This document shows, piece after piece, positions 10,454-34,954 of a DNA stretch of 64,000 nucleotides. The translations under genes and the position numbers were made by a program. The notes under the pieces were generated by a model, which was given only the letters and a program-made list of their open reading frames with translations, was not told the DNA's origin and ran no database searches. This DNA is from Dyella amyloliquefaciens (GTDB lineage Bacteria; Pseudomonadota; Gammaproteobacteria; Xanthomonadales; Rhodanobacteraceae). Position 1 is the first letter of the stretch; each line of letters begins with the position of its first letter. Location: NCBI RefSeq assembly GCF_004296575.1, contig NZ_SAYT01000002.1, positions 1-64,000 on the forward strand. Reading direction: 5' to 3'.

Positions 10454-11139
10454 CGCGCGTCCTTTTTCACGGGCATAGCGAAGGTCCGCGCGAGCCGGCG
10501 ATCAAACAGGGAGAGCCGCGTGCAGTGGATAAGGAGTGCCGCGATCGCGGTCGGAATGGCCCACACCGATACTTGCAGCGGCTCCACGATGATGCCGTTC
10601 TGCTCGAGGAAGCCCTTGATCAGCAGGATCGATTGGATGGCGATGAAAATGTCTTCGCCGAAAAACACCGCGATGTTGTCCACGGCGGATGCATTCGCCC
10701 GAATCTGCTGACGCTCAGCATCCGGCAACTCGCCGTGCCGGTTTGCGGCTGCGGCCTCGGCCATCGGTGCGATCAGTGGTCGCACCATCTGCGCATGGCC
10801 GCCGAGCGAGGTCAGGCCGAGTGCGGCAGTGACCTGGCGAATCACGAAGTAAAGCATCAGCACGCGTCCCGCCGTGGCTGCGCGTACCCGGCCGATCATC
10901 TGCCGCGCCTGTTCCTTGAGTCCATTGCGTTCGAGTAGCGCAATCACGGGAAGGGTCAGCCAGATCAGGCCCATGTAGCGGTTCTCGGTGAACGCCTTGC
11001 CGATTGCGCTGATGATGCCGACGAGATCCATGCCACCGGCAAGACCTGTCGCGAGACCGGCGACCGTCACCACCAGAAGCGCATTGAAGCGAAGCGCGAA
11101 GCCGATCACGACGATCGCCACGCCAATCAGAACCAGCAT
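10450..11139 (-). CDS. DUF969 membrane permease subunit
   Basis: A 229-residue inner-membrane protein of the DUF969 family, the usual partner of DUF979. Hydrophobic helices open at residue 1 (MLVLIGVAIVVIGFALRF) and continue to the C terminus. It is the first gene of the operon DUF969-DUF979-DUF2891. The start at 11139 has GAGGGG about 5-10 nt upstream. Proposed role: half of an import system, possibly for 5-oxoproline. Confidence 0.8.
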   Translation of the reverse strand: MLVLIGVAIVVIGFALRFNALLVVTVAGLATGLAGGMDLVGIISAIGKAFTENRYMGLIWLTLPVIALLERNGLKEQARQMIGRVRAATAGRVLMLYFVIRQVTAALGLTSLGGHAQMVRPLIAPMAEAAAANRHGELPDAERQQIRANASAVDNIAVFFGEDIFIAIQSILLIKGFLEQNGIIVEPLQVSVWAIPTAIAALLIHCTRLSLFDRRLARTFAMPVKKDAR

Positions 11140-16016: not shown

Positions 16017-16051
16017 ATACCATTGACACATTTATGGTATGCATATATCAA
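16017..16051 (+). promoter_or_regulatory. promoter block shared with the S12 gene at 46.8-48.9 kb
   Basis: An AT-rich block with a perfect TTGACA (16023-16028) and a TATATC/TATCAA -10 candidate 15-17 nt on. ATACCAT and ATGGTAT flank the -35 box as a 7-bp inverted repeat. Twenty-nine of 35 positions are identical to 48973-49007 read on the minus strand, at nearly the same distance from the start codon, which implies one shared regulator. Confidence 0.6.
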
Positions 16052-16091
16052 CGTACGGTAGGTTGAGCCTGCGCATCCGGGGGAGAATGTC

Positions 16092-18218
16092 ATGCCGCAC
16101 CATCTGCAAAAAAAACGTCACCGTTTATCTGTTTTCGGGCACCAGCCGGCGGCTGAGACCGGCACACGCCGCATTCGCATGAACTTGCGCTCGAGTGTCA
16201 CCAGCTTGCTCTCGATGTTCATGTTCACGATGGCCACCGGTGTCATGGGCGCCCAGGCGCCAATGCCGGAATCCGCCACAACCCCCAACGTTTCCGGCGT
16301 GACCGTGCCTGCGCCGATCACACCCGTCCCGGCCGGTTCTCTCGCTGATTTGCAGGGCGCCTCGACGCATCAGCTGACGAATGAGGATCTGTCCGCCTTC
16401 CTCGATGGTTTCGTACCGATTGCGCTCGCGCGCGGTGATGTCGCCGGCGGTGTCGTCAGTGTGGTGAAGGACGGCAAGGTACTGTTTGCCAAGGGTTACG
16501 GATACGCCGATCTGGAGAAGCGCACGCCGGTCGAGGTGGACCGCACGTCGTTCCGGATCGGTTCGACGTCGAAGTTGTTCACCTGGACAGCGGTGATGCA
16601 ACTGGTCGAGCAGGGCAAGTTGGATCTGGACGCCGACGTCAACCAATACCTTGACTTCAAGATTCCGCCTTATCAGGGCAAGCCGATCACCCTGCGCAAC
16701 ATCATGACCCACACGCCGGGCTTCGAGGACACCGCGAAGAACCTGATCTCGATCGACGGCAAGCCGGTCAACCTCGAGCAGTACATGAAGTCCCACCTGC
16801 CGGAACGGATCTTCCCGGCGGGCGAGGTGGTTGCCTATTCCAATTATGGTTGCGGGCTGGCTGGCTACATTGTGCAGCGCGTGTCCGGCCAGGATTTCGA
16901 CGATTACGTCGACCAGCACATTTTTATCCCGCTGGACATGCAGCACTCCACGTTCCGGCAACCCCTTCCGTCGGCGTTGGCGCCCTTGATGTCCGAGAGC
17001 TACAAGACCGCGTCAGATGGCAAGCAGCAGGCCTTCGAGATCATCAGTCCGGCACCTGCCGGTGCGGTAACCGCCACCGCGCTGGACATGACTCATTTCA
17101 TGATCGCCCAGCTGCAGAACGGCCTTTACGGCAACAACCGTATCTTGCAGCAGGCCACAGCTGTGGCGATGCACGCCCAGCAGCGCACCGAGGCACCCGG
17201 CCTCAACGGCTTCGCGCTGGGCTTCTATCATGAGGACAGCCACGGTCAGCGCATCATCGGTCATGCCGGCGACCTCGATTACTTCCACACTGACCTGCAT
17301 CTGTTGCTGGACTCGAATGTCGGCATCTTCATGTCGTTCAACAGCGCCGGCAATGCGGGTGGCGCCCACGTGATCCGCACGGCGTTGTTCGACGCCTTTC
17401 TCGACAGGTACTACCCCACGGCGCCAGCCAAAAACCTGCCTACCGCTTCCACGGCCAAAGCTGATGCAGCCAGGGTCGCGGGCTGGTACTTGGCCAGTCG
17501 TCGCAACGACAGCGGCATGCGCATGATGTACGCGTTGGGCCAGAACCAGGTCCAGGCACTTCCCGACGGCACGATCATCGCGGGCGGCATTAACAACGCT
17601 GCCGGCACGCCGCTGCACTGGCGCGAAATCGGCCCCTTGCAGTACCAGGAAGTCAACGGTACGCACAAGCTGGATTTCGTCGCGGATGCGAACGGCAATA
17701 TCGACTACTGGGCTACCGATGCGGTAGTGCCGGTGATGATCTTCCAGCGGCTCAATGGGCTGCACGCGCTGGGCTCGATCAAGCTGCTGGGTGCGCTGGG
17801 CCTGCTGGTCACTCTGCTTGCTTTGCTGGTCTGGTTCGGTGGCTGGCTGGTTCGCCGCCACTACAGGCGCACACTTGAGCTTCCGCCGCAGTTGCTGCGC
17901 AGCCGACTGTGGTCACGGCTGGCTACGCTGGTGCTGTTCGGCACGTTGGTCGGCTGGCTCATCCTGCTGATCTGCATGGGTAGCAACCCCTACCTCTTGC
18001 TGCAGGGCACCGCGGTGCCGTGGATGTACCTGCTCTCGGTGCTTGGCGTAGTGGCACTGATCGGTGTGCTGCTGATCGTGATCCACACGACACGTTGCTG
18101 GATGGCAAAGCGCAGCCGGTGGGTGCTGCTGGGTGAGACCGTGCTGGCCTTCTTTGCCGTCTACCTGGCGTGGCTGATCGTGGCATTCGGCATGGTCAGC
18201 TTCAACGTCAGGTTCTGA
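16092..18218 (+). CDS. exported S12 serine hydrolase with four C-terminal membrane helices (D-peptidase-like)
   Basis: A 708-residue serine beta-lactamase-fold hydrolase (peptidase family S12). An unusual 29-residue His/Lys/Arg-rich N-terminal extension precedes a Sec signal (about 30-55). The S12 catalytic set is complete: STSK (Ser158, Lys161), YSN (Tyr249) and HAG (His391). A beta-rich linker follows, then four membrane helices at about 562-587, 608-630, 643-665 and 678-703. The start at 16092 has GGGGGAGA upstream. S12 plus C-terminal helices is the architecture of D-stereospecific resistance peptidases that cut D-residue-containing nonribosomal peptides. DgcA and a POT transporter follow on the same strand. 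I infer a periplasm-facing D-peptidase; an esterase remains possible. Confidence 0.8.
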   Translation: MPHHLQKKRHRLSVFGHQPAAETGTRRIRMNLRSSVTSLLSMFMFTMATGVMGAQAPMPESATTPNVSGVTVPAPITPVPAGSLADLQGASTHQLTNEDLSAFLDGFVPIALARGDVAGGVVSVVKDGKVLFAKGYGYADLEKRTPVEVDRTSFRIGSTSKLFTWTAVMQLVEQGKLDLDADVNQYLDFKIPPYQGKPITLRNIMTHTPGFEDTAKNLISIDGKPVNLEQYMKSHLPERIFPAGEVVAYSNYGCGLAGYIVQRVSGQDFDDYVDQHIFIPLDMQHSTFRQPLPSALAPLMSESYKTASDGKQQAFEIISPAPAGAVTATALDMTHFMIAQLQNGLYGNNRILQQATAVAMHAQQRTEAPGLNGFALGFYHEDSHGQRIIGHAGDLDYFHTDLHLLLDSNVGIFMSFNSAGNAGGAHVIRTALFDAFLDRYYPTAPAKNLPTASTAKADAARVAGWYLASRRNDSGMRMMYALGQNQVQALPDGTIIAGGINNAAGTPLHWREIGPLQYQEVNGTHKLDFVADANGNIDYWATDAVVPVMIFQRLNGLHALGSIKLLGALGLLVTLLALLVWFGGWLVRRHYRRTLELPPQLLRSRLWSRLATLVLFGTLVGWLILLICMGSNPYLLLQGTAVPWMYLLSVLGVVALIGVLLIVIHTTRCWMAKRSRWVLLGETVLAFFAVYLAWLIVAFGMVSFNVRF

Positions 18219-18229
18219 CAAAGCCATTC

Positions 18230-18255
18230 GTGCGGCGGCGATTTCGCCGCCGCAC
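18230..18255. terminator. 12-bp hairpin between the S12 gene and dgcA
   Basis: GTGCGGCGGCGA (18230-18241) pairs perfectly with 18244-18255 across two bases, 12 nt after the S12 stop. It would terminate or partly attenuate transcription before dgcA, lowering its expression relative to the hydrolase. Confidence 0.55.
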
Positions 18256-18276
18256 TATTCATCATCAGGAGTCACC

Positions 18277-19302
18277 ATGAATACCCACGCAAGCGGGCGC
18301 CTGCGCCTGCAAGCCAGCCTCAAGAGCTGGCCGATCACGGCGCCGTTCCACATCACCGGCTATACCTTTACAGCGTTCGACGCACTGATTGTCGAGTTGA
18401 CCGATGAGCACGGTCACGTCGGATGCGCCGAGGCACAGGGCGTGTACTACCACAAGGACACGCCGGTCACGATGTTGGCCGAGATCGAAGCGTTGCGCGA
18501 ACGCATCGAGGCGGGCCTCACACGCGAAGAGTTGCAGCAGTTGCTGCCCGCCGGTGGCGCGCGCAACGTGCTTGACTGCGCCTTGTGGGACCTTGAGGCA
18601 AAGTGCACTGGCACGCCGGTCTGGCAGTTGGCCGGCCTGGAGCCACCGAAGCCGCTACTCACGACTTACACCGTGGGTGCGGAAGAGCCTGGCGTCATGG
18701 CGCAACGTGCAGCTGACTTTGTGGGCGCGCGTGCGATCAAGTTGAAGCTTACCGACGACGACCTCAATGCCGAACGCGTGCTTGCCGTGCGCAAGGCGCG
18801 CCCGGATGTATGGCTGATGGTTGATGCCAACCAAGGCTTCACTCGTGAGTCCCTGGCACACCTGCTGCCTACGTTTGTGGAGGCGCGCGTGGATGTTGTC
18901 GAACAGCCATTCCCGGTCGGCAATGAGGCATGGCTCGACGGATTGGAGCGGCCGATTCGTTTTGCGGCCGATGAAAGCGTGCTGGACCGCAGCGATCTCG
19001 CCAAGATGGTCGGCCGGGTCGATGTCATCAACATCAAGCTGGACAAGTGCGGCGGTCTCACCGAGGCGCTGGCCATCGCTGATGAGGCGCGCAAGCTTGG
19101 TTTCAAGTTGATGGTCGGCAACATGGGCGGCTCGTCGTTGGCTATGGCGCCCTCGTTCGTGGTCGGTCAGCTATGCGACGTCGTGGACCTCGATGGTCCG
19201 ATCAATCTGCGCGAGGACTACTCGCCATCCGTGGTGTATGAGGACGGCAAGATATGGTGCCCCGATAACCTGTGGGGTGGGCCGTCGCCGGCCGCGCCAT
19301 AA
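18277..19302 (+). CDS. dgcA: enolase-superfamily N-acetyl-D-amino-acid racemase / dipeptide epimerase
   Basis: A 341-residue mandelate-racemase/muconate-lactonizing-type enolase-superfamily enzyme. The KxK pair is Lys155/Lys157, metal ligands are Asp183 (MVDAN), Glu209 (EQPFP) and the DES segment near 232, and the partner lysine is in NIKL near 254. Relatives are L-Ala-D/L-Glu epimerases and DgcA, which racemizes N-acetyl-D-glutamate after DgcN acetylates D-Glu. A DUF1611/DgcN gene is in the same locus at 28.5 kb, which favours DgcA over a plain muropeptide epimerase. The start has AGGAG 6 nt upstream; the 13-nt leader TCATCAGGAGTCA is repeated before dgcN. Confidence 0.8.
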   Translation: MNTHASGRLRLQASLKSWPITAPFHITGYTFTAFDALIVELTDEHGHVGCAEAQGVYYHKDTPVTMLAEIEALRERIEAGLTREELQQLLPAGGARNVLDCALWDLEAKCTGTPVWQLAGLEPPKPLLTTYTVGAEEPGVMAQRAADFVGARAIKLKLTDDDLNAERVLAVRKARPDVWLMVDANQGFTRESLAHLLPTFVEARVDVVEQPFPVGNEAWLDGLERPIRFAADESVLDRSDLAKMVGRVDVINIKLDKCGGLTEALAIADEARKLGFKLMVGNMGGSSLAMAPSFVVGQLCDVVDLDGPINLREDYSPSVVYEDGKIWCPDNLWGGPSPAAP

Positions 19303-19339
19303 TGGTTCTGTCCAGGCAGCAGGCAGAGGGGTCCGCGTG

Positions 19340-20659
19340 ATGTCTTTCGCGACGACCTCATCGACCGAGAAAAGCTGGTTCGGCCACCCGCGTGGCCTGA
19401 CCGTGCTTTTCCTGACCGAAATGTGGGAGATGTTCTCCTTCTTCGGCATGCGCGCGATCTTGGTCTATTACATGACCAAGCACCTGGACATGAACCAGGA
19501 GCACGCCTCGCTGGTTTATGGCGCCTACGCAGCCTTCGTCTACTTCACGCCGGTGTTCGGTGGCATGGTCGCCGACCGCTGGCTGGGCAAGGCGCGAGCG
19601 GTGGTGATCGGCGGCGCGACCATGGCGCTCGGCCATTTCATGATGACGTGGGAAGCCTTGTTTTACCCGGCGCTATGCATGATCGCGCTGGGCAACGGGT
19701 TGTTTCTGCCTAGTCTCGCCAGCCAGATCGAGGGTCTCTATCGCGAGGGCGATACGCGTACCAAGAGTGCGTACAACATCTATTACGTCGGCATCAACCT
19801 GGGTGCATTCCTGGCCCCGTTCGTCTGCGGCACCCTCGGTGAGGTCTACGGCTGGCACTGGGGTTTTGCCGCGGCCGGCCTCGGCATGCTGCTCTCGCTG
19901 GTGATCTATCTGGCCGGTCGCCGCTATCTGCCGCCCGACCCGCAGCGCGGGGTGGCCGCGCAAGCGGCCCGTCCACCGCTGGATGGAGCCGCGCGTAATC
20001 GCTTTGCGCTGCTGATCGGTATCGCCGCAATCGTGGTGATCTTCCGCGGCGCCTACGAGCAGGTGGGCAACACGATTGCGCTGTGGGCCGACACCGGCAT
20101 CGATCGCCAGGTAGGTCCCTGGACCATACCGATGACGTGGTTCATATCGATCGACTCACTGGTGGTGTTTGCGTTCACGCCCTTGCTCGTGGCGCGTTGG
20201 GCGCGACTGGCGCGACGCGGTATCGAAACGTCGTTGTTGGGTCGGATGGCATTCGGTGCCGCCGTCGTGGCAGCGTCGTACGTGGCATTGGGGTTGATCG
20301 CCGGATGGCATGAGGCCCACGGAACGCGTGCAAGCTGGCTATGGCTGGCTGGTTGGTTCGTGGTGTTTGCCACGGGCGAGCTGTACATCTTGCCGAGCGG
20401 ACTGGCGTTGTTCGGGCGGATGGCTCCGGACGGGTTTCGTGCCACCAGTATCGCTACCTGGTTCTTCGCCGGCTTCTTCGGAAATCTACTCGCAGGGGGA
20501 TTGGGTACGCTCTGGAGCCAGTTCGCCCATGGCTGGTTCTTTGTGATGATCGGCGGCGTGTCGGCATTGTCCGCCGTGCTTCTTTACATCCTTTCGCTGT
20601 GCACGGGCCATGTGGAAAAGCACGTGACCGTTGACGCTCAAGTCGTGCCTTCGCGGTGA
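19340..20659 (+). CDS. POT-family proton-coupled peptide transporter
   Basis: A 439-residue major-facilitator protein of the POT/PTR2 family, which imports di- and tripeptides with protons across the inner membrane. The N-terminal signature FLTEMWEMFSFFGMRA contains the ExxER-like E-W-E-x-F-S-F-F-G segment near residue 30, followed by YYVGINLGAFLAPFV near 140, the second PTR2 signature region. About 12-14 hydrophobic segments are visible. AGAGGGG precedes the ATG at 19340. It follows dgcA by 37 nt, so the transporter and the racemase are probably co-transcribed; imported peptides would carry D-residues. Confidence 0.88.
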   Translation: MSFATTSSTEKSWFGHPRGLTVLFLTEMWEMFSFFGMRAILVYYMTKHLDMNQEHASLVYGAYAAFVYFTPVFGGMVADRWLGKARAVVIGGATMALGHFMMTWEALFYPALCMIALGNGLFLPSLASQIEGLYREGDTRTKSAYNIYYVGINLGAFLAPFVCGTLGEVYGWHWGFAAAGLGMLLSLVIYLAGRRYLPPDPQRGVAAQAARPPLDGAARNRFALLIGIAAIVVIFRGAYEQVGNTIALWADTGIDRQVGPWTIPMTWFISIDSLVVFAFTPLLVARWARLARRGIETSLLGRMAFGAAVVAASYVALGLIAGWHEAHGTRASWLWLAGWFVVFATGELYILPSGLALFGRMAPDGFRATSIATWFFAGFFGNLLAGGLGTLWSQFAHGWFFVMIGGVSALSAVLLYILSLCTGHVEKHVTVDAQVVPSR

Positions 20660-20706
20660 GCGGCGCGATAGGTCATTGCCGATGCAGGGGCGCTGCTGGG
20701 AGCGGG

Positions 20707-21426
20707 TTACTTCGAGCGCGCGGCTGGTCGCTTTTTCGCCGGTATCACGGGCTTCTTCGTCGACGCGGGCTGCCTGGGCTTGCGCTTGATCGGTGGGCCC
20801 TGGGTGCCTTTATTGCTCCCGAGGGCTTCGGCCAGCCGAGACTGGCTCGCCGTGCAGATCGAGAGCACCCGACAGCGTTTGGGTCCCACTGCGATATAGG
20901 CATGGCCCATGCCGCTGTCGAAATACATCGAATCACCCGCCTCGAGCCGGGTTGGGGCGTAAAGGTCCGTATGCAGGTCGACCGTACCCTCCAGCACGTA
21001 GATGAACTCCTCCCCCTCGTGGCGGATCAGTTCGCCAAACTCGGCCAGCGAACGCGCGTGGGGTTCGGCAATGATCGGAACCAATCGTTTGTTGAGCAGA
21101 TCTGCGTTGGGATAAAGATGGCTATAGTTTTCAGTCTCCACCGAAAGCCCGCTACCAGCACGGGTGATGCTGCGCCGCCCCTGAACCCTGGTTGGCGGAG
21201 CCGCCGAGTCGGGTTCAAACAGCTGCGCAATATCGACTTCCAGGCCCGTACTCAACCGCGCGAGCTTGTCGTAGCTCAACGACATCTTGCCGTTTTCGAT
21301 CTTGGACAAGGTGGATACGGGTAGGCCCGTGCGCTCGCTGACCTCGGCGAGCGTCAGTTGCTTGTGCTTGCGCAGATTGCGCAAGGCAGAGCCTGGTTCG
21401 GGTTTTGCGTGCAGATGTTTGAGCAT
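20707..21426 (-). CDS. XRE-family regulator with a cupin sensor domain
   Basis: A 239-residue regulator. The helix-turn-helix spans about residues 12-65 (LRNLRKHKQLTLAEVSERTG, then STLSKIENG), the cupin-2 domain about 110-190, and a Lys/Pro/Arg-rich basic tail of about 30 residues ends the protein. XRE-cupin proteins are ligand-sensing regulators of amine, amino-acid and peptide catabolism (PuuR, SutR-like). It is divergent from the TonB receptor across about 200 bp containing a 10-bp inverted repeat on the receptor promoter. It is therefore the probable local regulator of the D-peptide locus. The ATG at 21426 is preferred; a GTG three codons upstream is possible. Confidence 0.85.
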   Translation of the reverse strand: MLKHLHAKPEPGSALRNLRKHKQLTLAEVSERTGLPVSTLSKIENGKMSLSYDKLARLSTGLEVDIAQLFEPDSAAPPTRVQGRRSITRAGSGLSVETENYSHLYPNADLLNKRLVPIIAEPHARSLAEFGELIRHEGEEFIYVLEGTVDLHTDLYAPTRLEAGDSMYFDSGMGHAYIAVGPKRCRVLSICTASQSRLAEALGSNKGTQGPPIKRKPRQPASTKKPVIPAKKRPAARSK

Positions 21427-21540
21427 GAATGTCACCGCGGTCGGTCCTGTTCCTGATTTTACGCATGGCGATAGTTGAGCGCACGCCCGCCGAAAACCGA
21501 AGTTTCATTCTTTCGGCGGCTTATCCATTTATCGCAGAAA

Positions 21541-21588
21541 GTTTTCTAATATTGAAAAATTGACAAAATTAGAAAACCTCTCGATATT
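21541..21588 (+). promoter_or_regulatory. promoter and operator of the TonB receptor gene
   Basis: GTTTTCTAAT (21541-21550) and ATTAGAAAAC (21568-21577) form a perfect 10-bp inverted repeat with 17-nt spacing. A perfect TTGACA (21560-21565) lies between the arms, and GATATT (21583-21588) follows 17 nt later as a -10 box. Binding by the divergent XRE-cupin protein would cover the -35 element. Confidence 0.65.
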
Positions 21589-21629
21589 GCTACAATCGAG
21601 GCATTGACAGCCTCTGGGGAGGAGAAGGT

Positions 21630-24077
21630 ATGGCCAAGAACGTCGGAAAATTCACTCCGTTGTTTATTGCTATTGCGGCCGCCATGGCGGTTTCATCGGT
21701 CAGTGCGGAAAGCGCGTCGGGGGCGGCGGCGCAGGGGGTTGCTCAATCGGCACCGGCACAGTCAGGTACAGACGGCCAGGCTGACCAGCAGACGACTGCG
21801 GCGCCCAAGGACAAGGCGGTGGACCAGGCCAATGCGACCCAGCTTGGGACCGTCCTGGTGACGGCGACGAAGCGCAGTGAGTCGCTGGAAAAGGTGCCCA
21901 TGGCCATTTCGGCGGTGACCGATCAGGATATCGATCGCCAGCATCTGCAGAATTTCGCAGACTACGCGGCCAGTGCTCCTGGACTCGTCGCCATGGGTCC
22001 GCCGGGGCAGACGGTGCTTAGCGTCCGTGGCATCGCTTCCGGTTCTGAACAGTCTGTGGCGACGGTCGGCACGTATATCGACGAGACGCCGTTCGGCTCG
22101 AGCAGTGCTTACGCCGGTGGCGCGATGCTGACACCGAACATCGATCCCCATGACTTGCAGCGTGTCGAGGTATTGCGAGGGCCGCAAGGCACGCTATATG
22201 GCGCCGGTGCGCTGGGTGGCGTGATCCGCTTCATCACTACTCCGCCCGACGCCACCAGCGCCTTTGGACGTGTGGAAGTTGGCGCCAGCGACGTTAGTGG
22301 CGGCGGTACCGGTTTCGACGTGCATGGCATGCTGAACGTGCCGCTGATCGCCGACAAGTTGGCATTCCGTGCCAGTGCGTCAACCACGACTACCCCGGGT
22401 TTCATCGATGATGCCGCTCAGGGCACGAAGAACATCAACGAAACCCAGAGCCACGATGGCAATTTCTCGCTGTTGTGGACGCCTACGGACAAGACCTCGC
22501 TGCAGCTGAGCGCGCTGGTACAGAACTTCAGCTTCGCAAACCCCAATGACATCACGGTCGATCCCGTCACGTTGAAACCCTTGTATGGCGATCTGCAAAC
22601 GCGCACCGCCAACTTTGGCGGCGACGCGTTTGTCGAGAAATACCGGCAATACAACGCAACCTTCAAGACCGATTTTGGCTGGGCGAAGCTGACCTCCAAC
22701 ACCGCCTACACGACGCTGGATGCCAAGATCAATACGGACGTGACGTCGATCGCGGCCGCGCAGGGCTGGTATGGTCTGTTGGGGATGGATTTAGGTGCGG
22801 GCACGCCTGGCACGCCCCCCAGCGGAACCTTCGGCATTCTGGAGTTTCAGCCGACAACGCAAACGAAGTTCACCCAGGAATTTCGCCTGGCATCGTCGGA
22901 AGATCAGGCAGTGTCATGGCTGGGTGGCTTGTTCTTCACCCACGAGATCGGCAATGTCGACCAGATCATTCCGTCGACTGACTACTACACCGGACAATTG
23001 ATCAATTCCGGGCTTGGTCCCAATCCTATCGAGGGGACCCACCAGCCGAGCTCGTACATCGGATACGCCGCTTACGGCAGCGCGACCTGGCACATCAACG
23101 ACCAGTGGGCCATCGAAGGTGGCTTGCGCTGGGCCCACGACAAGCAGACGTACCAGGAGTGGCTCTATGGAACGCCGGTTCTAGGCCTCACTGCAGCGCC
23201 GAATCTTCAGGTCGATGGCCACTCGGCCGACAGCAGCACGACCTACTCGTTCTCGCCGCAATTCCACATCAATGACCACAACATGCTGTACGCGCGGGTG
23301 GCATCCGGCTTTCTGCCCGGCGGTCCCAATGTGAAGGTCGTCAATACTCCCAATGTGCCGGCTACGTACTCCCCGACCGACCTGACGAACTATGAGGTGG
23401 GCCTGAAATCCACCTTGTTGGACAACACCCTTCAGTTGGACCTCGCTGCGTACCACATCGACTGGACCAAGATCACGTTGACGACGTATGCCAACGGGTA
23501 CACGTTCCTCGTCGGCGGCGGGCAGGCCAAGAGCAACGGCTTCGAGGCCTCGGCTGCCTATATCCCGGTACGCGGCCTGAAACTCTCGCTCAATGCCGCC
23601 TACAACAAGTCTGAATTGACCAAGGATGCACCGTTCCCGAACAACGGCATGAAGGGCGATCCGCTACCGTATGCACCGGAGTTTGCAGGCGCTGTAAACG
23701 GTGACTATGACTTCGCACTAGGCGGCGGCTGGCACGGCTATGTGGGCGGCAGCTATCAATACGTCGGTGCACGATCGACCGACTTTGCCTTCAGCTTTCC
23801 CATCGCCGGGGTTCCTGGTTTTGCGCCGCTTCCGGCGAGCCCGCGGATTCCGGGATACGGAACCGTCAGCCTGCGCACGGGCGTGAGCAAGGGCGCGGTA
23901 AATATCGACCTGTATGTCAAGAACCTGACCAACAAGCGCGGGATTCTCACCGGCAGCAGCTGGCAGAACTACGTACCTGTCGCCGGTACCCTCAACCCGG
24001 TCACGGGAAATGTGGAAGCCAGCGACGCGATCATTACGCCGCGTACGATCGGTGTTTCCGTCTCCACCACGTTCTGA
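21630..24077 (+). CDS. TonB-dependent outer-membrane receptor
   Basis: An 815-residue TonB-dependent receptor. The signal peptide ends near VSA-E (about residue 28). An Ala/Gln-rich stretch and a TonB-box-like LGTVLVTATKR segment near 72 precede the plug domain (VPMAISAVTDQDI, LRGPQGTLYGAGALGG) and the 22-strand barrel, which ends in V-S-T-T-F with the expected terminal Phe. GGAGGAG precedes the ATG. It takes up large solutes across the outer membrane. Its place between the POT transporter, three S12 hydrolases and DgcN points to peptides rather than siderophores, an inference from context. Confidence 0.9.
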   Translation: MAKNVGKFTPLFIAIAAAMAVSSVSAESASGAAAQGVAQSAPAQSGTDGQADQQTTAAPKDKAVDQANATQLGTVLVTATKRSESLEKVPMAISAVTDQDIDRQHLQNFADYAASAPGLVAMGPPGQTVLSVRGIASGSEQSVATVGTYIDETPFGSSSAYAGGAMLTPNIDPHDLQRVEVLRGPQGTLYGAGALGGVIRFITTPPDATSAFGRVEVGASDVSGGGTGFDVHGMLNVPLIADKLAFRASASTTTTPGFIDDAAQGTKNINETQSHDGNFSLLWTPTDKTSLQLSALVQNFSFANPNDITVDPVTLKPLYGDLQTRTANFGGDAFVEKYRQYNATFKTDFGWAKLTSNTAYTTLDAKINTDVTSIAAAQGWYGLLGMDLGAGTPGTPPSGTFGILEFQPTTQTKFTQEFRLASSEDQAVSWLGGLFFTHEIGNVDQIIPSTDYYTGQLINSGLGPNPIEGTHQPSSYIGYAAYGSATWHINDQWAIEGGLRWAHDKQTYQEWLYGTPVLGLTAAPNLQVDGHSADSSTTYSFSPQFHINDHNMLYARVASGFLPGGPNVKVVNTPNVPATYSPTDLTNYEVGLKSTLLDNTLQLDLAAYHIDWTKITLTTYANGYTFLVGGGQAKSNGFEASAAYIPVRGLKLSLNAAYNKSELTKDAPFPNNGMKGDPLPYAPEFAGAVNGDYDFALGGGWHGYVGGSYQYVGARSTDFAFSFPIAGVPGFAPLPASPRIPGYGTVSLRTGVSKGAVNIDLYVKNLTNKRGILTGSSWQNYVPVAGTLNPVTGNVEASDAIITPRTIGVSVSTTF

Positions 24078-24107
24078 CGGAGCGAGGTTGGCGACAGGTG
24101 GGCGCAG

Positions 24108-24135
24108 TGGCCGCAGAATGCTTGTTCTGCGGTCA
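24108..24135. terminator. hairpin after the TonB receptor gene
   Basis: CCGCAGAA (24111-24118) pairs with TTCTGCGG (24125-24132), extended to 11 of 12 pairs by the flanks, about 30 nt after the receptor stop. Confidence 0.55.
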
Positions 24136-24678
24136 CCGCGCTTTCGCCAGGCGACTGGTCGACTCGACAGCACAGCTTGGACGGCTGATTAGTCCGGGGT
24201 GGTCGTCAAGGGGGCGCTCCATGCAAGCGCCACTCAGATTGCAAGTAATGACACGACCATTCCGCCACGCCTGAACAGCATGTCCCTGTGCGAATCCCCT
24301 GGAGTACGCCGCGAGCTCTCCCGGGGCCATGGTGGTCGGCACTGTTCGGGAGCAACGCTGGTCTTTTTTCTTGAGATCTCGAGATGACCAGCCGCGAAGT
24401 TTGCGTTGCGGGCAATTTATGAGGCCGCTCGGCACATCGCTCGGAGCGGTGGTTGTTGATAGTGCAGGCGAGTGCGACGTTGGCATGGGGTGCACCCGCA
24501 TTACTTCATCAAGAGACTCAAGCAGATTGCGGTGAAGGGATTTTCACCGACCAAAGGCGCTTTGTGCTCGGCCTGCTGGGCTCGCATGCGTTGTCGGGAT
24601 GCATGGTGATCGGCCTGAACCATTTTGCTTACACGTAGTTGCGCGTCATCTCCCAAATTCGATGTACGAGGAAAAAAC
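24136..24678. other. long leader / intergenic region before the second S12 gene
   Basis: About 540 bases without a supported gene. Short open frames on both strands lack ribosome binding sites. It should contain the promoter of the S12-S12-dgcN-M19 operon, but I find no good match to the 35-nt block shared by the other two S12 genes. The ribosome binding site GAGG is at 24669-24672. Confidence 0.4.
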
Positions 24679-26694
24679 ATGTACACACGATTGAAGGCGT
24701 TTGCGGCGACCTTGCTGTTTACGGTCTGCGCTGCCTCGGCCACATCGGTTAACAGCCAGGCTTCCACGCCAGGTTCGGTGGCGAACTCTGCTGCAGCCGA
24801 AGTTGGCGCGGTGGCGCCAGCGCCATTAGCAGTGCAGGGCATCGCAAGCGCTCCCACGATGACCGCGCAAGACGTGCAGACGTTTTTCGACAGTGTGGTG
24901 CCGTACGCATTGCAACGTGGCGACATCGCCGGCAGCGTCATCGTAGTGGTCAAGGACGGCCAGCCCCTGTTTGCTCAGGGCTATGGCTACGCCGATGTCG
25001 CGAACGGCAAGCCGGTTGTCGCGGACCAGACCTTGTTCCGGCCCGGCTCGATATCCAAGACGTTCGCCTGGACCGCGGTGATGCAACTGGTCGGCGCGGG
25101 CAAGATCGACCTGGACAAGGACGTTAACAGCTACCTGGATTTCACGATCCCGGAAAAATTCGGCAAGCCGATCACCATGCGTGACTTGATGACGCATACG
25201 GCCGGCTTCGAAGAATCCGTGGGCGATGAGTTCATGAAGTCGACTGATCAGCTGTTCCCGTATGGCGACTACGTGAAGAAGCATCTGCCGGCGCGGATAT
25301 TCCCACCGGGCAAGCTCGTCGCCTATTCGAACTACGGCGCGACCCTGGCCGGTTACATCGTGGAGCGGGTCTCTGGTCAGCCGTTCAACGAATACGTGGC
25401 CGAGCACATCTTCAAGCCGCTGGGCATGGATCATTCGACTTTCGAGCAGCCCTTGCCGGCGCCGCTGGCAGCGAACATGTCGGTGGGCTATCACTCGGCA
25501 TCGGACAAGAAGACCATTCCGTTCGAGGCGATCGAGGTCGGGCCGGCCGGATCGTTGAGCGCTACCGGCGCCGACATGGCGCATTTCATGATCGCTCAAC
25601 TTGGTGGCGGCCAGTACAACGGCGCCACGATGCTGTCGCCGGCGATGATCGAGTTGATGCATTCGCCGCAATCGACCATGGCGCCGGGCTTGAACGGTTT
25701 CGATCTGGGCTTCTACCAGGAAAACCGTAATGGCCAGCGCATCATCGGCCATGCCGGTGACACCGCGGCTTTCCACAGCGACTTGCATTTGCTGCTGGAT
25801 CAGCATGTCGGCGTGTTCATGTCGTTCAATAGCCCCGGCAAGCAGGCCGAGGTGGGTAGGCTGCGCACCGCCTTGTTCCGCTCCTTCCTGGATCGCTACT
25901 ACCCGTATGCGCCGCCGCACGAAGAAACTGTAGCCAACCCCAAGCCCGACGCGGCTCGCGTGGCCGGCGCCTATGAAGTGACGCGGCGTATCGAAAGCAC
26001 GTTTTCCGTGTTGCAGGCACTGACTCAGTCGAGCGTGATTGCCCAGCCCGACGGCACGATCAAGATCGAAGCGCTCAAGGATCTCAGCGGCACGCCCAAA
26101 ACGTGGCGTGAAGTCGGGCCGCTGGTGTATCGCGAAGTCGGTGGCCAGGCGCATACCAAGTTCATCACCGACAAGGATGGTCGTATCCAGTACTGGATCT
26201 CCGACGACTTCCTTCCGGTCGAATTGTTCCAGCCGGTACATGGCCTGCGCAGCATCGGCATGCTCAAGTCGCTGGGCGTGTTGTTCCTGGTGACCCTGGT
26301 GCTGACCGTGGTGATCTGGTTCGGTGGCTGGGTGGTGCGGCGGCGTTTTCATGCGCCGTTGGTGATGACCCGGGGTCAACGACGCTTGAGGCTGGCTTCC
26401 CGGCTTGGCGCGGTGTTGTTGCTGGTCATGGTGTGCAGCTGGTTGCTGATGATTTCCAGTGGCATCGAGGCATCCAATCACACGATAGGTCTGCTTTTGA
26501 CGGCGTTGTACATCCTGGGCGTGCTCACTGCCCTGGGCGCCATCGCCATGCTGATCCATGCGGTACTTCGTGTGTTGCGCGGACCTGGCGGCTGGCTGGC
26601 TCGCCTGGGCGAGGTGTTCATTGGTCTGAGTGCGCTGTACGGGTTGTGGGCCATTTGTGCCTACGGTCTGGCGAACTTCAACTACACGTTCTGA
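24679..26694 (+). CDS. exported S12 serine hydrolase with four C-terminal membrane helices (D-peptidase-like)
   Basis: A 671-residue paralogue of the S12 protein at 16092. A Sec signal peptide (about 1-28) precedes the S12 domain with SISK (Ser124, Lys127), YSN (Tyr216) and HAG (His358). A beta-rich linker and four hydrophobic helices in the last 130 residues end the protein at F-N-Y-T-F, much like F-N-V-R-F in the paralogue. It lacks the long His/Arg-rich N-terminal extension. It opens an operon-like run with a second exported S12 hydrolase, dgcN and an M19 dipeptidase. I infer cleavage of D-residue-containing peptides at the periplasmic face of the inner membrane; substrate choice cannot be read from sequence. 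Confidence 0.8.
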   Translation: MYTRLKAFAATLLFTVCAASATSVNSQASTPGSVANSAAAEVGAVAPAPLAVQGIASAPTMTAQDVQTFFDSVVPYALQRGDIAGSVIVVVKDGQPLFAQGYGYADVANGKPVVADQTLFRPGSISKTFAWTAVMQLVGAGKIDLDKDVNSYLDFTIPEKFGKPITMRDLMTHTAGFEESVGDEFMKSTDQLFPYGDYVKKHLPARIFPPGKLVAYSNYGATLAGYIVERVSGQPFNEYVAEHIFKPLGMDHSTFEQPLPAPLAANMSVGYHSASDKKTIPFEAIEVGPAGSLSATGADMAHFMIAQLGGGQYNGATMLSPAMIELMHSPQSTMAPGLNGFDLGFYQENRNGQRIIGHAGDTAAFHSDLHLLLDQHVGVFMSFNSPGKQAEVGRLRTALFRSFLDRYYPYAPPHEETVANPKPDAARVAGAYEVTRRIESTFSVLQALTQSSVIAQPDGTIKIEALKDLSGTPKTWREVGPLVYREVGGQAHTKFITDKDGRIQYWISDDFLPVELFQPVHGLRSIGMLKSLGVLFLVTLVLTVVIWFGGWVVRRRFHAPLVMTRGQRRLRLASRLGAVLLLVMVCSWLLMISSGIEASNHTIGLLLTALYILGVLTALGAIAMLIHAVLRVLRGPGGWLARLGEVFIGLSALYGLWAICAYGLANFNYTF

Positions 26695-26798
26695 ATCACG
26701 TCAGAGTCTGGCTGTGCCGCGTGGCGCGGATTCAGGCGCCTCGCGGTCCCCACGCTCATGCCGTCGATACGGCGATCACGACAGAAGGATGGCAACCC

Positions 26799-28439
26799 AT
26801 GGTCCTGGAACCCGGTAAACGCGCCTCGCATCTCAGGCGTAACGCAAGCCGTTGGCTGTTGAGTGGCTGCATCGCACTTGCCGTTCTGCCGTCTGCGTAC
26901 GCGGCGGAACCGTTGCCGCCAGCTGCGGATTCACCCGCATTGGATGCGTTTGCGCAAAAAACCATGCAGACCTTCGATACGCCTGGCATGGCCGTGGTGG
27001 TGGTCGATGGCGGCACGGTTGCCACGCACGGCTACGGTGTGCGCAAGCTCGGTGATCCGGCACGGGTGGATGCGAACACGATCTTCCCCATCGGCTCCAA
27101 CACCAAGGCGTTCACCGCTGCGGCGCTGGCGATCCTGGTGGACGAAGGGAAGCTGCGCTGGGACGATCGCCTGGTCGACAAGCTGCCAGGCTTTCGCATG
27201 TACGACCCGTATGCCTCCAGTGAAATGACGGTGACGGATCTGCTGACCCATCGCAGTGGCTTGGGTTTGGGCGAAGGCGACTTGATGGTCTTTCCCACGA
27301 CGAACCGCACGCGCGCCGAGCTGGTGCATGACATCCGATTCCTGAAGCCGGCCCATTCGTTCCGGGCGGATTACGACTACGACAACGTGCTGTACATCGT
27401 TGCCGGCCAGCTGGTCGAGGCTGTATCGGGCCAGCGCTGGGAGGACTTCGTGCAGCAGCACATCCTCAATCCGGTGGGGATGCATGACACTCAGGTGAGC
27501 ATCGACACGCGCGTGGCCGACCAGGTGTCACTGCATGCGAAGAACACCACGGCGGTGCGCGGGGTGGGCAAACAGGCAGTGCTCACCACGGTGCTGTCAG
27601 GCGACGTTTTCGCGCCGGCCGGTGCACTGCAAGTGAGTGCGACGGACATGGGGCGATGGCTGCAGTTGCAGTTGCGGCATGGCGCGCTGGACGATGGCAA
27701 GCGGGTGTTCAGCGAGGCAGCCGCGCAGGCCTTGTGGACGCCGCAGACCTTGATCCCGATACGTCCCGCGCCGCCGCCGCTTGCGCTGGCGCAGCCGCAG
27801 TTCAGCGCCTATGCGCTGGGGCTGGAGGTGCAGGATTATCGAGGCCACAAGATCATCACCCATGGCGGCGGTGTGCTCGGTGGCATCTCGATCGTGGTGA
27901 TCATTCCAGAGAAAAACGCGGCGTTCGCCATCATGCTCAACTCCGAGGATGCCGGAGCCCTGTTTGCGATGCGCGAACACCTGCTGGATAGCCTGCTTGG
28001 GCTGCCTTCGCCGGACTGGATCACCACCTACCAGCAGGTACTCGACGGGCTACGAGCGAAGGCACTGGCGGCGCTCAAGACCAGTAACGCCGCCACGCAT
28101 CCCGAGCGTGGTCCGTCGCTGTCGCTGTCTCGATATGCTGGCGTGTATCGCGATCCCTGGTATGGCACGGCAACCATCACCCAGGGCAAGGACGGGAAGG
28201 GCGCTTTGAGCATCAGCTTCGATCGCACACCCGGTCTGCACGGCACGCTGGAGCACGTGCAGTACGACACCTTCCGTACCCATTGGGCGATGCCGGATCT
28301 TGAAGACGCGTATGTCACTTTCGCGCTCAAGCCAGACGGCAGCGTTGAACGGATGTCGATGAAATCGGTGTCGCCGCTTGCCGATTTCAGCTGGGACTAC
28401 CAAGACCTGAACTTCACGCCGACAGCGGACAAGAAATAG
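26799..28439 (+). CDS. exported S12 serine hydrolase (beta-lactamase / D-aminopeptidase-like)
   Basis: A 546-residue soluble S12 protein with a Sec signal ending at AYA-A (about residue 35). The catalytic set is SNTK (Ser100, Lys103), YDN (Tyr194) and HGG (His355). The C-terminal 130 residues form a beta-rich domain typical of DUF3471-containing relatives, with no membrane helix, so it should be free in the periplasm. GAAGGA lies about 10 nt before the ATG at 26799. It follows its membrane-bound cousin by 104 nt and precedes dgcN. Family members include D-aminopeptidases, DD-peptidases and esterases; context favours peptide hydrolysis. Confidence 0.82.
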   Translation: MVLEPGKRASHLRRNASRWLLSGCIALAVLPSAYAAEPLPPAADSPALDAFAQKTMQTFDTPGMAVVVVDGGTVATHGYGVRKLGDPARVDANTIFPIGSNTKAFTAAALAILVDEGKLRWDDRLVDKLPGFRMYDPYASSEMTVTDLLTHRSGLGLGEGDLMVFPTTNRTRAELVHDIRFLKPAHSFRADYDYDNVLYIVAGQLVEAVSGQRWEDFVQQHILNPVGMHDTQVSIDTRVADQVSLHAKNTTAVRGVGKQAVLTTVLSGDVFAPAGALQVSATDMGRWLQLQLRHGALDDGKRVFSEAAAQALWTPQTLIPIRPAPPPLALAQPQFSAYALGLEVQDYRGHKIITHGGGVLGGISIVVIIPEKNAAFAIMLNSEDAGALFAMREHLLDSLLGLPSPDWITTYQQVLDGLRAKALAALKTSNAATHPERGPSLSLSRYAGVYRDPWYGTATITQGKDGKGALSISFDRTPGLHGTLEHVQYDTFRTHWAMPDLEDAYVTFALKPDGSVERMSMKSVSPLADFSWDYQDLNFTPTADKK

Positions 28440-28448
28440 AAGGCCCAA

Positions 28449-28467
28449 GCCGGCTACCTGCGCCGGC
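28449..28467. terminator. short hairpin between the S12 gene and dgcN
   Basis: GCCGGC (28449-28454) pairs with 28462-28467 across seven bases, just after the S12 stop. It is a weak terminator or attenuator, in the same relative position as the hairpin before dgcA. Confidence 0.35.
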
Positions 28468-28530
28468 GAATTCACTACAACAGTTGCTGTTCGCTTGATT
28501 GCGCCAGCAGGTCATCAGGAGTCATCTGGT

Positions 28531-29586
28531 ATGAGTACCCCATCGGCATTGTCCGATACACACGTTGGCGCGTTGCCGCAGCCATATCTTTTGTTCCTGG
28601 GCGATACCACCGTGCCGGGCTATGCCAAGACGGCCTATGGCGTGCGCGATTGGGCCGGGGATTTGTGTGTGGGCGAATGGGCTTGCGGCGCAACGGTCAG
28701 CACCGGGCTGCCGGTATTGACGCCCCGTGAGGCGAAGGAACGCGGTGCCAAGGGGCTGGTGATTGGTGTCGCCAATGCAGGCGGCTTCATTCCAGATAGC
28801 TGGGTCGACGCGCTGGTCGAAGCGCTGCACGCGGGCCTCGATATCATCAGCGGCATGCACATGCGGCTGGCCGAGATCCCGCGGCTGGCTGCGGCGGCCG
28901 AGCTCCTGGGGCGGCGTCTGATTGACGTGCGCACGCCGCCGCGAAATATCCCGATCGCCAGCGGCCGCAAGCGTGCCGGCAAACGCCTGTTGACGGTGGG
29001 TACCGATTGCGCGCTGGGCAAGAAGTACACCGCCCTGGCGCTGGCTCGAGCTTTTGCCGTGCGAGGCGTGGCAGTCGATTTTCGTGCCACCGGCCAGACC
29101 GGCATCCTGATTGCCGGAAGCGGCATTCCCATGGACGCCACCATTGCCGATTTCTCGGCCGGTGCGGCCGAAATGCTGAGCCCTGCCGCGCATGCGGAAC
29201 ATTGGGATGTCATCGAAGGGCAGGGCTCGTTGTTTCATCCGGCCTACGCTGGCGTATCGCTGGCCCTGCTGCACGGCAGCCAGCCGGATGTCTTCGTGGT
29301 CTGCCATCAGCCTGGCCGCACGCATGTGCTTGGCCATCCGGAATTCGTCCTGCCGACGATCGAGCAGGTGATCGAGCTGACGATCCAGCTCGGTCAACGC
29401 ACCAATCCGGCCATCCGTTGCGCGGGCATCAGCCTCAATACGGGGCACCTGGATGCAGATGCAGCACAGGAACTTCTGACGCGGACGGCCACGCAGCTGG
29501 GCATGCCCGCGGCCGATCCGATGCGCGGCGGCGAGTCGTTTGATCGGCTGGCCCAGGCAGCTTTGGACGAACCGGCCGGTGCATGA
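28531..29586 (+). CDS. dgcN: DUF1611 N-acetyltransferase DgcN
   Basis: A 351-residue DUF1611 protein with the family P-loop-like segment GTDCALGKKYT at residues 157-167 and the conserved EGQGSLFHPAYAGVS stretch near 230. DgcN was described as N-acetylating D-glutamate (and some other D-amino acids) so that DgcA can racemize the N-acetyl form, giving L-amino acids for catabolism. Both genes are in this locus. AGGAG precedes the ATG at 28531, and the 13-nt leader motif matches the one before dgcA. The stop overlaps a small coupled frame by 4 nt. Cytoplasmic. Confidence 0.8.
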   Translation: MSTPSALSDTHVGALPQPYLLFLGDTTVPGYAKTAYGVRDWAGDLCVGEWACGATVSTGLPVLTPREAKERGAKGLVIGVANAGGFIPDSWVDALVEALHAGLDIISGMHMRLAEIPRLAAAAELLGRRLIDVRTPPRNIPIASGRKRAGKRLLTVGTDCALGKKYTALALARAFAVRGVAVDFRATGQTGILIAGSGIPMDATIADFSAGAAEMLSPAAHAEHWDVIEGQGSLFHPAYAGVSLALLHGSQPDVFVVCHQPGRTHVLGHPEFVLPTIEQVIELTIQLGQRTNPAIRCAGISLNTGHLDADAAQELLTRTATQLGMPAADPMRGGESFDRLAQAALDEPAGA

Positions 29587-29699
29587 ACACCCATCATCCC
29601 GTCAGTCTTCCTGATCCGGATGCAGTCAAAGGCTGGCCCCATCGGCGCGTAGATTTCCTGATCCGCGCGCCCACCCATCATCGGAAAACGCCACGATGA
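29583..29699 (+). CDS. possible 38-residue coupled ORF between dgcN and the dipeptidase
   Basis: The frame starts in a 4-nt ATGA overlap with the dgcN stop and ends in a 4-nt ATGA overlap with the dipeptidase start, so it exactly fills the gap. The peptide is His-, Pro- and Arg-rich (MNTHHPVSLPDPDAVKGW at the start) and predicted soluble. No separate ribosome binding site is seen; it would depend on translational coupling. It could be a true small protein or a device carrying ribosomes to the next gene. It could also be chance. Confidence 0.35.
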   Translation: MNTHHPVSLPDPDAVKGWPHRRVDFLIRAPTHHRKTPR

Positions 29700-31039
29700 A
29701 ACACCGACACTCGACTCAGGCTTTCGCTGCCGCGGCAACCATGCTGTTTGCTGCATGTACGCCGTTGGCGATGGCGAAACAGGATAGTGACGCCGTCCTC
29801 GCAACACGCGTCGAGCATGTGCTGAAGACCGTGCCCCTGATCGACGGTCACAACGATCTTGCCTGGGAGATCCGGCAACGCTACGGCAATGCCTACGGCG
29901 TGGACCTCAGTGCCAGCACCGCGAACCTGTCGCCATCGATGAAGGACGGCAGTTCCTCGCCGCCGCTGATGACCGACATTCCGCGTCTGCACGAGGGGCA
30001 TGTCGGCGGGCAATTCTGGTCGGTATGGGTACCGTCCGGGGTGGCCGGCCCGGAGGCAGTGCAGATGACGGTGGAGCAGATCGACATCGTGCGCAACATG
30101 GTGGCGCGTTATCCCAACGACCTGCAGATGGCGTACTCGGCAGACGACATCATGCGCGCCTTCAAGGCGGGTCGCGTCGCCTCGCTGATCGGCATCGAGG
30201 GTGGACACCAGATCGACAACTCGTTGCCGGTGCTGCGCCAGATGTATGTGCTGGGCGCGCGCTACATGACGCTGACCCATACGCTGGACAATGACTGGGC
30301 CGATTCGGCCACCGATGCACCGAAACATCATGGGTTGACCCCGTTCGGGCGTGCGGTGGTGCACGAGATGAACCGCCTCGGCATGCTGGTCGATCTCAGT
30401 CACGTGTCGCCGGACACCATGCGCGATGCGCTGAAAACCTCGCAGGCGCCGGTCATGTTCTCGCACTCCGGTGCGCGCGCATTGAACGACCATCCGCGCG
30501 ACGTGCCGGACGATGTGCTCAAGATGGTGGCTCGCAATCACGGTATCGTGATGGCGACCTTTGCCACTCCGTACGTGTCGGCCGAGTACCATCGTTGGTG
30601 GGCCGAGCGCAGTGCCGAGCAGACGCTGTTGAATGCACCGCCTTACGCCGGCATCTACATCGGCCAACCAGAGCGGGCCAAGGCGGCGATGGCTGACTGG
30701 GACCGCCAGCATCCCAAGCCTGTTGTCACGCTGGCGATGGTGGCGGACCACATCGAGCACATCCGCGAAGTTGCCGGGATCGACTGTGTGGGCCTTGGTT
30801 CCGACTTCGACGGCATTCCCGATACACCCAAGGGCCTGGAAGGCGTCGACAAATACCCGGCCCTGCTTGAGGAGCTCGCGCGGCGCGGCTGGAGCGACAG
30901 TGACCTTGCCAAGCTGGCCGGTGGCAACATGCTGCGTGTGATGCGCGAAGCAGAAGCTGTGGCGAAACGGCTGCAGGCCTCGGAGCCGCCGTCGTCGGCG
31001 ACGATCGGGCAACTGGATGCCGGTGCTGCGGGCAAGTGA
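29696..31039 (+). CDS. exported M19 (renal-type) dipeptidase
   Basis: A 447-residue peptidase of family M19, zinc enzymes that cleave dipeptides and tolerate or prefer a D-residue at the C-terminal position. Metal motifs appear in order: DGHNDL (His52, Asp54), IEGGHQID near 165, VDLSHVS near 235, MFSHSGARAL near 260, and GLGSDFDG near 365. The N terminus is a Sec signal (LFAACTPLAMA); Cys21 suggests a lipoprotein, though the lipobox is imperfect. It overlaps the small ORF by 4 nt. In this locus it would finish L-D dipeptides released by the S12 enzymes. Confidence 0.88.
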   Translation: MKHRHSTQAFAAAATMLFAACTPLAMAKQDSDAVLATRVEHVLKTVPLIDGHNDLAWEIRQRYGNAYGVDLSASTANLSPSMKDGSSSPPLMTDIPRLHEGHVGGQFWSVWVPSGVAGPEAVQMTVEQIDIVRNMVARYPNDLQMAYSADDIMRAFKAGRVASLIGIEGGHQIDNSLPVLRQMYVLGARYMTLTHTLDNDWADSATDAPKHHGLTPFGRAVVHEMNRLGMLVDLSHVSPDTMRDALKTSQAPVMFSHSGARALNDHPRDVPDDVLKMVARNHGIVMATFATPYVSAEYHRWWAERSAEQTLLNAPPYAGIYIGQPERAKAAMADWDRQHPKPVVTLAMVADHIEHIREVAGIDCVGLGSDFDGIPDTPKGLEGVDKYPALLEELARRGWSDSDLAKLAGGNMLRVMREAEAVAKRLQASEPPSSATIGQLDAGAAGK

Positions 31040-34922: not shown

Positions 34923-34954
34923 GCGCGACCACCCCAGCCCGTTCGGAATATCCC

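Follow-up and report, generated by a model that had tools for sequence, protein, structure and literature searches.

We describe a cluster of nine genes in a 64,000-nt stretch of the genome of the soil bacterium Dyella amyloliquefaciens (contig NZ_SAYT01000002.1, positions 1 to 64,000; hereafter the window) that we read, with a probability of roughly 0.55, as a TonB-driven utilization cassette for peptides containing D-residues, most likely non-acidic ones. When the window proteins were scanned against Pfam and NCBIfam models, all nine genes were found, in the order below between positions 16092 and 31039, which bears out the inventory of an earlier annotation made from the letters alone (the sequence-only reading). 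That reading had the locus extend over 16017-31039; the nine genes do lie there, yet related genes run on to 50.8 kb.

16092-18218, plus strand: S12a, an S12 hydrolase (PF00144) with a signal-like N-terminus, a beta domain and four C-terminal membrane helices (start at ATG 16092 behind GGGGAG; alternative start at 16179)
18277-19302, plus strand: DgcA-like dipeptide epimerase/N-acyl racemase (MR_MLE) of an Arg-less class (G28, F31, Y58, N282)
19340-20659, plus strand: POT/PTR2 peptide:proton symporter (Pfam, NCBIfam)
20707-21426, minus strand: regulator with an XRE helix-turn-helix and a cupin domain (alternative GTG start at 21435)
21630-24077, plus strand: TonB-dependent receptor (Pfam, NCBIfam)
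24679-26694, plus strand: S12b, a second S12 hydrolase with C-terminal membrane stretches, 47% identical to S12a
26799-28439, plus strand: S12c, a soluble S12 hydrolase with DUF3471 and a signal-like N-terminus
28531-29586, plus strand: DgcN-like DUF1611 protein of the Ala40/Ala159 class
29696-31039, plus strand: M19 dipeptidase with a hydrophobic N-terminus

In the route that we propose, oligopeptides or lipopeptides would reach the periplasm through the receptor, and the membrane-anchored S12 proteins (of DL-peptidase type), soluble S12c and the M19 protein would cleave them. Two arms would follow. In the first, POT would import dipeptides and the epimerase would invert their D-residue, such that ordinary dipeptidases could finish the task. 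In the second, free D-amino acids would enter via a YkvI-like or another carrier and be N-acetylated by the DgcN variant, thereby becoming N-acyl substrates of the same epimerase, and deacetylation would yield the L-amino acid. The XRE-cupin protein would control the divergent promoter. A full path from uptake to L-amino acids had been put forward before; its conserved neighbourhood and DL-peptidase-like S12 proteins have stood, whereas its D-Glu step via DgcN and DgcA is not supported.

A search with the window DgcN in one genome per species returned 573 relatives, and the best 80 of these 573 loci were kept for counts (37 Sphingomonadales, 25 Lysobacterales, 7 Steroidobacterales and 11 other or unassigned). 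Because the open reading frame (ORF) caller missed genes, neighbours were counted by tblastn within 10 kb of dgcN, or less where the contig ends. Present at this distance were the epimerase (68/80 loci), XRE-cupin (64/80), S12a-like (64/80), S12c-like (60/80), TonB receptor (55/80), M19 (37/80, some of the matches being distant with only 25-31% identity), POT (32/80) and S12b-like (21/80) genes. A gene for a membrane S12 protein (S12-TM) lies directly upstream of the epimerase gene in 49 of 71 cases, and directly downstream follows either POT (29/71) or a DUF819 membrane protein (7/71). The sequence-only reading had staked half of its case on such a neighbourhood recurring in related genomes, and it does recur. 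We found no description of the cassette in the literature searched.

The control set the 68 cassette loci that reach 17 kb (the other 12 are shorter and were dropped) against 32 canonical DgcN loci (L120 and L152 left out). The latter have uneven and often shorter flanks, of ~3-15 kb on each side and only 4 kb in L148-L150, which biases the canonical set towards absence. Found on the cassette side alone were S12-TM (61/68 vs 0/32), XRE-cupin (60/68 vs 0/32), YkvI (57/68 vs 0/32), the TonB receptor of the window type (46/68 vs 0/32), M19 (32/68 vs 0/32), POT (29/68 vs 0/32), DUF819 (7/68 vs 0/32) and RpiR (2/68 vs 0/32); S12c (56/68 vs 9/32) and a D-aminoacylase-like gene (31/68 vs 2/32) occurred on both sides. 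GltS (0/68 vs 17/32) and LysR (1/68 vs 28/32) showed the opposite distribution. P values of this control overstate the difference, since loci of one clade are not independent. Extra genes of at least 5 loci were clustered, and ten representatives read by eye comprised YkvI-like proteins, an amidohydrolase, DUF819 and other hydrolases. The cassette is real, widespread and coherent, and spans Lysobacterales, Steroidobacterales and Sphingomonadales.

The sequence-only reading named the racemase and DUF1611 families correctly, although both proteins score just below the DgcA and DgcN equivalog cut-offs: the epimerase reached 364.3 bits against the DgcA model NF042940 (cut-off 400; Ruegeria DgcA, 507.9) and 238.9 bits against the L-Ala-D/L-Glu epimerase model NF011708 (cut-off 343), and the DgcN-like protein 442.7 bits against NF041892 (cut-off 480; S. 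meliloti DgcN, 496). The catalytic epimerase residues K155, K157, D183, E209, D232 and K254 are kept in 86/86 cassette rows, as is the DxD motif (D304/D306; 86/86), which in dipeptide epimerases binds the alpha-ammonium of the substrate and fits a free N-terminal ammonium group. Positions 28, 31 and 58 are occupied by Gly (85/86), Phe (82/86) and Tyr (84/86). At these positions (window numbering), Ruegeria DgcA, Pantoea DgcA and E. coli YcjG carry Arg throughout, and chain 4gfi has Arg at 28 and 31 as well in the printed alignment. The dipeptide epimerases 3jva and 3rit, which we take to act on non-acidic dipeptides, lack Arg at 28 and 31 (3rit has Arg at 29); 3id7 is presumably from S. coelicolor. 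In the enolase superfamily, these three positions presumably belong to the loops that set specificity, termed the 20s and 50s loops.

A parallel change is seen in DgcN. Its position 40 is Arg in 15/16 rows of the canonical set and Ala in 85/89 cassette rows, and position 159 in the P-loop is Ser in 15/16 and Ala in 89/89, respectively, while 45 columns are invariant over all 105 rows, including G155, T156, D157, C158, G161 and K162 of the P-loop GTDCxxGK. The canonical-set exception at both positions is Bradyrhizobium L151, whose epimerase likewise belongs to the Gly/Tyr class. Pairing was counted in the 113 loci with one copy each of DgcN and epimerase (others were dropped; some genomes appear twice, e.g. 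L032/L035 and L036/L146). Given as DgcN residues 40 and 159 followed by epimerase residues 28, 31, 58 and 282, the classes were AA/GFYN (75 loci), RS/RKRC (14), RS/RRRC (5), RA/HYFC (7), RA/RYFC (4), RA/SYFC (1), RA/GMYN (3) and, with one locus each, GA/GFYN, AA/GFFN, AA/GLYN and AA/RRYC. Trees built by a quick method for 63 of the 113 loci (the 36 non-cassette rows in full and, from the 77 cassette rows, a sample of 27 made up of the window and a random choice) indicated that the classes cluster for both genes, yet not all as clades; in the epimerase tree, Dyella-type GFYN, GMYN with GLYN, and other GFYN sequences are separate branches of one group. Judged from these residues, the epimerase and DgcN of the cassette form a class distinct from the known D-Glu pair at positions that may read the side chain.

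The classes also differ in the company they keep. Canonical loci go with LysR and often GltS, the cassette class with peptidases, carriers and a TonB receptor, and in a third class, RA/[HRS]YFC, RpiR and a D-aminoacylase-like gene lie nearby in 12/12 loci (L154-L160, L162, L164, L165, L171 and L172); this class perhaps serves N-acyl-D-amino acids. Besides the cassette, the Dyella genome itself carries a canonical LysR-DgcN-GltS locus (L030), beside which no epimerase gene was found. Conversely, the epimerase occurs without DgcN: in nine loci of the genus, S12-TM, epimerase, POT and RpiR lie together in the absence of DgcN, with an adjacent receptor in eight of the nine (not in L141). Two of these modules, L141 and L143, belong to the same genome as the window (contigs C13 and C14; epimerase identity 67% and 63%). 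At E <= 1e-90, the epimerase is present in at least 50 of 233 family genomes, a lower bound since the search missed G107 and G117, where tblastn shows the gene (L166, L167); 41 have no cassette-type DgcN and 21 no DgcN relative of any kind, neighbourhoods and residue class having been read for a minority of these 21. That an epimerase with a DxD motif is encoded next to a peptide importer suggests that its substrates are imported dipeptides. The RpiR protein was also considered as a sensor of N-acetylmuramic acid; in NCBIfam it matched SapR best, with 139.8 of 500 bits, and the MurR/RpiR model far more weakly, and it was dropped as evidence for murein use.

These observations bear on the strongest of the alternatives, namely that the locus scavenges wall fragments, with DgcN and DgcA performing their known D-Glu reaction and the carboxylate being held in a different manner. 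In its favour, DgcA and DgcN remain the best NCBIfam models, the DxD motif is present, the DgcN-less module of the genus carries RpiR with a SIS domain (which we take to bind sugar phosphates), and S12 proteins include D,D-carboxypeptidases. However, Arg28, Arg31 and Arg58 of the epimerase and Arg40 of DgcN are lost, GltS accompanies 0/68 cassettes, and L030 forms a separate canonical locus in the same genome. No murein gene was recognized among the extra clusters of at least 5 loci, only part of which were named, and this absence is weak because the ORF caller missed many genes (DgcN itself in 58/80 loci). The Arg losses, the lack of GltS and the DgcN-less epimerase together render D-Glu-rich muropeptides less likely as the substrate; we consider this explanation unlikely and the conversion of D-Glu to L-Glu proposed by the sequence-only reading doubtful for this locus.

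Further genes that may supply carriers and hydrolases lie at 42-51 kb. The first four form a satellite cluster putatively tied to the cassette:

42114-43574, minus strand: MlrC-like M81 protein
43612-45276, minus strand: soluble S12 hydrolase
45344-46564, minus strand: MFS transporter
46822-48927, minus strand: S12e, a third S12 hydrolase with C-terminal hydrophobic stretches, 44% identical to S12b, with an uncertain N-terminus
49707-50828, plus strand: YkvI-like transporter of the APC fold

An MlrC-like gene was found in 0/80 cassette loci, so the satellite cluster does not belong to the cassette in general. The YkvI-like protein of the window (a single copy in the genome) shares 60% identity with its counterpart in L062, which follows dgcN there. 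Where a DgcN gene has a YkvI-like gene in its locus (62 cases), the latter comes directly after it on the same strand in 49. Within the family it occurs in 6/233 genomes, five of which have a cassette-type DgcN (P = 5e-7 if the genomes are treated as independent). The predicted structure (pLDDT 89) is similar to those of amino-acid carriers, AdiC and y+LAT1 among them. Three members were scanned with Pfam and NCBIfam models without a match, and 'YkvI' is the name we take this transporter family to bear. The protein is probably the carrier for the arm that handles free D-amino acids. In seven loci (L060, L070, L081, L082, L088, L092 and L108), the DUF819 protein stands in the place of POT, and no locus of the 80 has both; we predict it to carry dipeptides or D-amino acids. 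An amidohydrolase gene (Amidohydro_3 in Pfam), which we assume to be D-aminoacylase-like, is present in 34/80 loci.

As to the hydrolases, five of the 18 PF00144 matches of the genome lie within 32.6 kb of the window (0.12 expected; Poisson P = 2e-7, a post-hoc figure), a crowding that exceeds chance. S12a and S12b share an SxxK motif (GSTSK and GSISK), YSN and a hydrophobic C-terminal quarter, their N-termini being signal-like as judged by eye, and the predicted structure of S12a ends in four helices (530-561, 569-601, 612-641 and 646-668), in agreement with the exported S12 proteins with C-terminal helices of the sequence-only reading. No S12 model reached its NCBIfam cut-off among the best 25 of 45-47 models per protein. 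A profile of the S12-TM proteins had as its top match in the PDB the DL-peptidase Lip3 (9sn1; E 1.6e-40), which lends weight to the earlier idea of peptidases of a D-stereospecific type. Within positions 64 to 678 of the model, 437 residues align with Lip3, to which identity is ~22%; in fold comparison, Lip3 tied with esterases and AmpC. From their sequences, S12a and S12b fit the architecture of DL- or D-stereospecific S12 peptidases, with SxxK, YxN, a signal-like N-terminus and a membrane-anchored C-terminus.

This relationship raises the alternative that resistance comes first, i.e. that S12 DL-peptidases inactivate the nonribosomal peptides of competitors and the other genes merely clear away the pieces. 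Lip3, the nearest solved relative of S12-TM, is the name of a lipopeptide-induced DL-peptidase (PMC13188892), and the window holds three S12-TM genes (S12a, S12b and S12e). Furthermore, S. maltophilia P373 degrades iturin, fengycin and surfactin, with breakdown reaching free amino acids in the view of the authors (PMC12516957), and another S. maltophilia strain carries the cassette (L073). The degradation by P373 is not tied to particular genes, however, the Lip3 fold match is shared with esterases and AmpC, and the TonB receptor, POT, epimerase and DgcN suggest uptake and use of nutrients; we regard a primary role in resistance as improbable. Least probable is a cassette for N-acyl amino acids or esters instead of peptides, with S12 proteins that act as esterases or lactamases: S12-fold esterases and AmpC do tie with Lip3, and a D-aminoacylase-like gene marks 34/80 loci and the third DgcN class (12/12), but POT and M19 are peptide families and the DxD motif presumably suits a free N-terminal ammonium group.

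Several points weigh against a cassette for non-acidic D-residue peptides. The evidence consists of genes, their order and conservation, residue classes and folds, from which we infer every reaction, substrate and direction. The best named NCBIfam models are still DgcA and DgcN; contact between the Arg residues and the substrate side chain is something we assume, and a neutral pocket could hold D-Glu in another way. Pairing of the residue classes has exceptions, with three R40 DgcN proteins next to a G28 epimerase and one A40 protein next to an R28 epimerase, and coupling between the two enzymes is suggestive since position 40 of DgcN changed a single time on the tree. The cassette-type dgcN is patchy (3/20 genomes of the genus, 11/233 of the family), and POT and M19 are found in only 32 and 37 of the 80 loci. 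The YkvI-like gene of the window lies 18.7 kb from the cassette and is absent from 6/11 family genomes with a cassette-type DgcN, where the second arm would need another carrier.

Regulation of the cassette may involve two elements between the XRE-cupin and receptor genes:

21541-21577, no strand: perfect inverted repeat with 10-base arms, GTTTTCTAAT-N17-ATTAGAAAAC, a candidate operator
21560-21588, plus strand: promoter-like TTGACA-17-GATATT before the TonB receptor gene, overlapping the repeat (read by eye)

In other cassettes, the regions ahead of the XRE-cupin gene have 8-mers in common, found in up to 30/67 cases, compared to a maximum of 11 in 20 shuffled sets, and the shared words form a promoter with a conserved spacer, TTGACAATTnTCTRATCAGGATCATTAT. 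A home-made search yielded this motif with a likelihood of 1593.5 (12 restarts) vs 440.6 for one shuffled set (6 restarts). The string TTGACAATT occurs in 29/67 regions, and the window carries TTGACAAAAT. The window matches the conserved motif only in part: its best place scores 7.2 at 21535 (next separate place, 4.2) and is out of register with TTGACA, so that, with the window itself among the 67 training regions, the motif evidence is weak for the window.

Other neighbours of the cassette were noted. Directly downstream (32152-41052) lie genes for an acyl-CoA dehydrogenase, a carboxyltransferase, a biotin carboxylase and a 2-oxoacid dehydrogenase complex, which could serve branched-chain amino acid breakdown and would suit hydrophobic residues, the family names being generic. 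On the minus strand at 8456-11139 is a DUF2891-DUF979-DUF969 trio that we take to be linked to 5-oxoproline and that would also suit glutamyl peptide metabolism. All four genes of a Wadjet system (JetABCD type I) occupy 51588-58059 on the minus strand and adjoin an integrase (59615-60499) and a C5-methylase (60763-62316).

Peptides with D-residues, such as nonribosomal lipopeptides, cyanobacterial toxins and wall fragments, withstand ordinary proteases, and their complete use by bacteria is poorly known. If our reading holds, the cassette would be a readable marker of D-peptide use in soil and water genomes, DUF1611 variants, DUF819 and YkvI-like carriers would gain testable roles, and for an entire class of these proteins the label 'DgcN/DgcA, D-glutamate' may be incorrect.

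Among known systems, the DgcN-DgcA pathway for D-glutamate (NF041892, NF042940) comprises the same two families and shares the P-loop and the catalytic residues of the racemase with the window pair. The window DgcN is 48-53% identical to the 16 canonical-set rows, one of which (L151) is of the cassette-like class. In the window pair, however, the class Arg residues are replaced by Gly, Phe, Tyr and Ala and scores fall under both cut-offs, and the 32 canonical loci (28 with LysR, 17 with GltS) contain no S12-TM, POT, M19, YkvI or XRE-cupin gene. E. coli YcjG, an L-Ala-D/L-Glu epimerase, is a homologue with the catalytic D, E, D and K and the DxD motif in common, but has Arg at the three class positions and sits between tpx and mpaA and not beside S12, TonB or POT genes. 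Lip3 and Lip7 of Paenibacillus and BogQ/TriF are S12-type serine hydrolases like those of the cassette; unlike the latter, they have no TonB, POT or racemase partner in the descriptions that we read.

A further parallel is the mlr cluster of sphingomonads (MlrA-F), in which MlrB to MlrF, going by their descriptions alone, each have a like-described counterpart in the cassettes or at 42.1 kb. According to the literature, MlrB (59 kDa) is a periplasmic beta-lactamase-like serine hydrolase, MlrC an M81 protein and MlrD a PTR2-type transporter (PMC12474180), and MlrE is a dipeptidase and MlrF a D-aminoacylase (PMC4520899, PMC6256522). The window M81 protein scores 346.8 bits against the MlrC model NF041767 (cut-off 999). 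A published mlrA primer was sought in 20 records and in 80 genomes from the genus to which L089 belongs; every match had 2-3 mismatches and was attributed to chance, and the proposed relation therefore rests on family descriptions. In Sphingopyxis m6, linearized microcystin rose 4.3-, 7.9- and 5.3-fold when mlrB, mlrC or mlrD, respectively, was deleted, and all three mutants still degraded microcystin (PMC12474180). Possibly, and as a whole only tentatively, DgcN-DgcA would represent, rather than a single D-Glu pathway, a family of enzyme pairs that invert D-amino acids, with three or more substrate classes and a separate uptake system for each, in which the window class has shifted to non-acidic D-residues, its epimerase doubles as a dipeptide epimerase (acting on imported dipeptides and acetylated free D-amino acids), and the mlr cluster is a specialized offshoot of D-peptide cassettes. 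By analogy, the mlr cluster is a working counterpart of the route proposed here.

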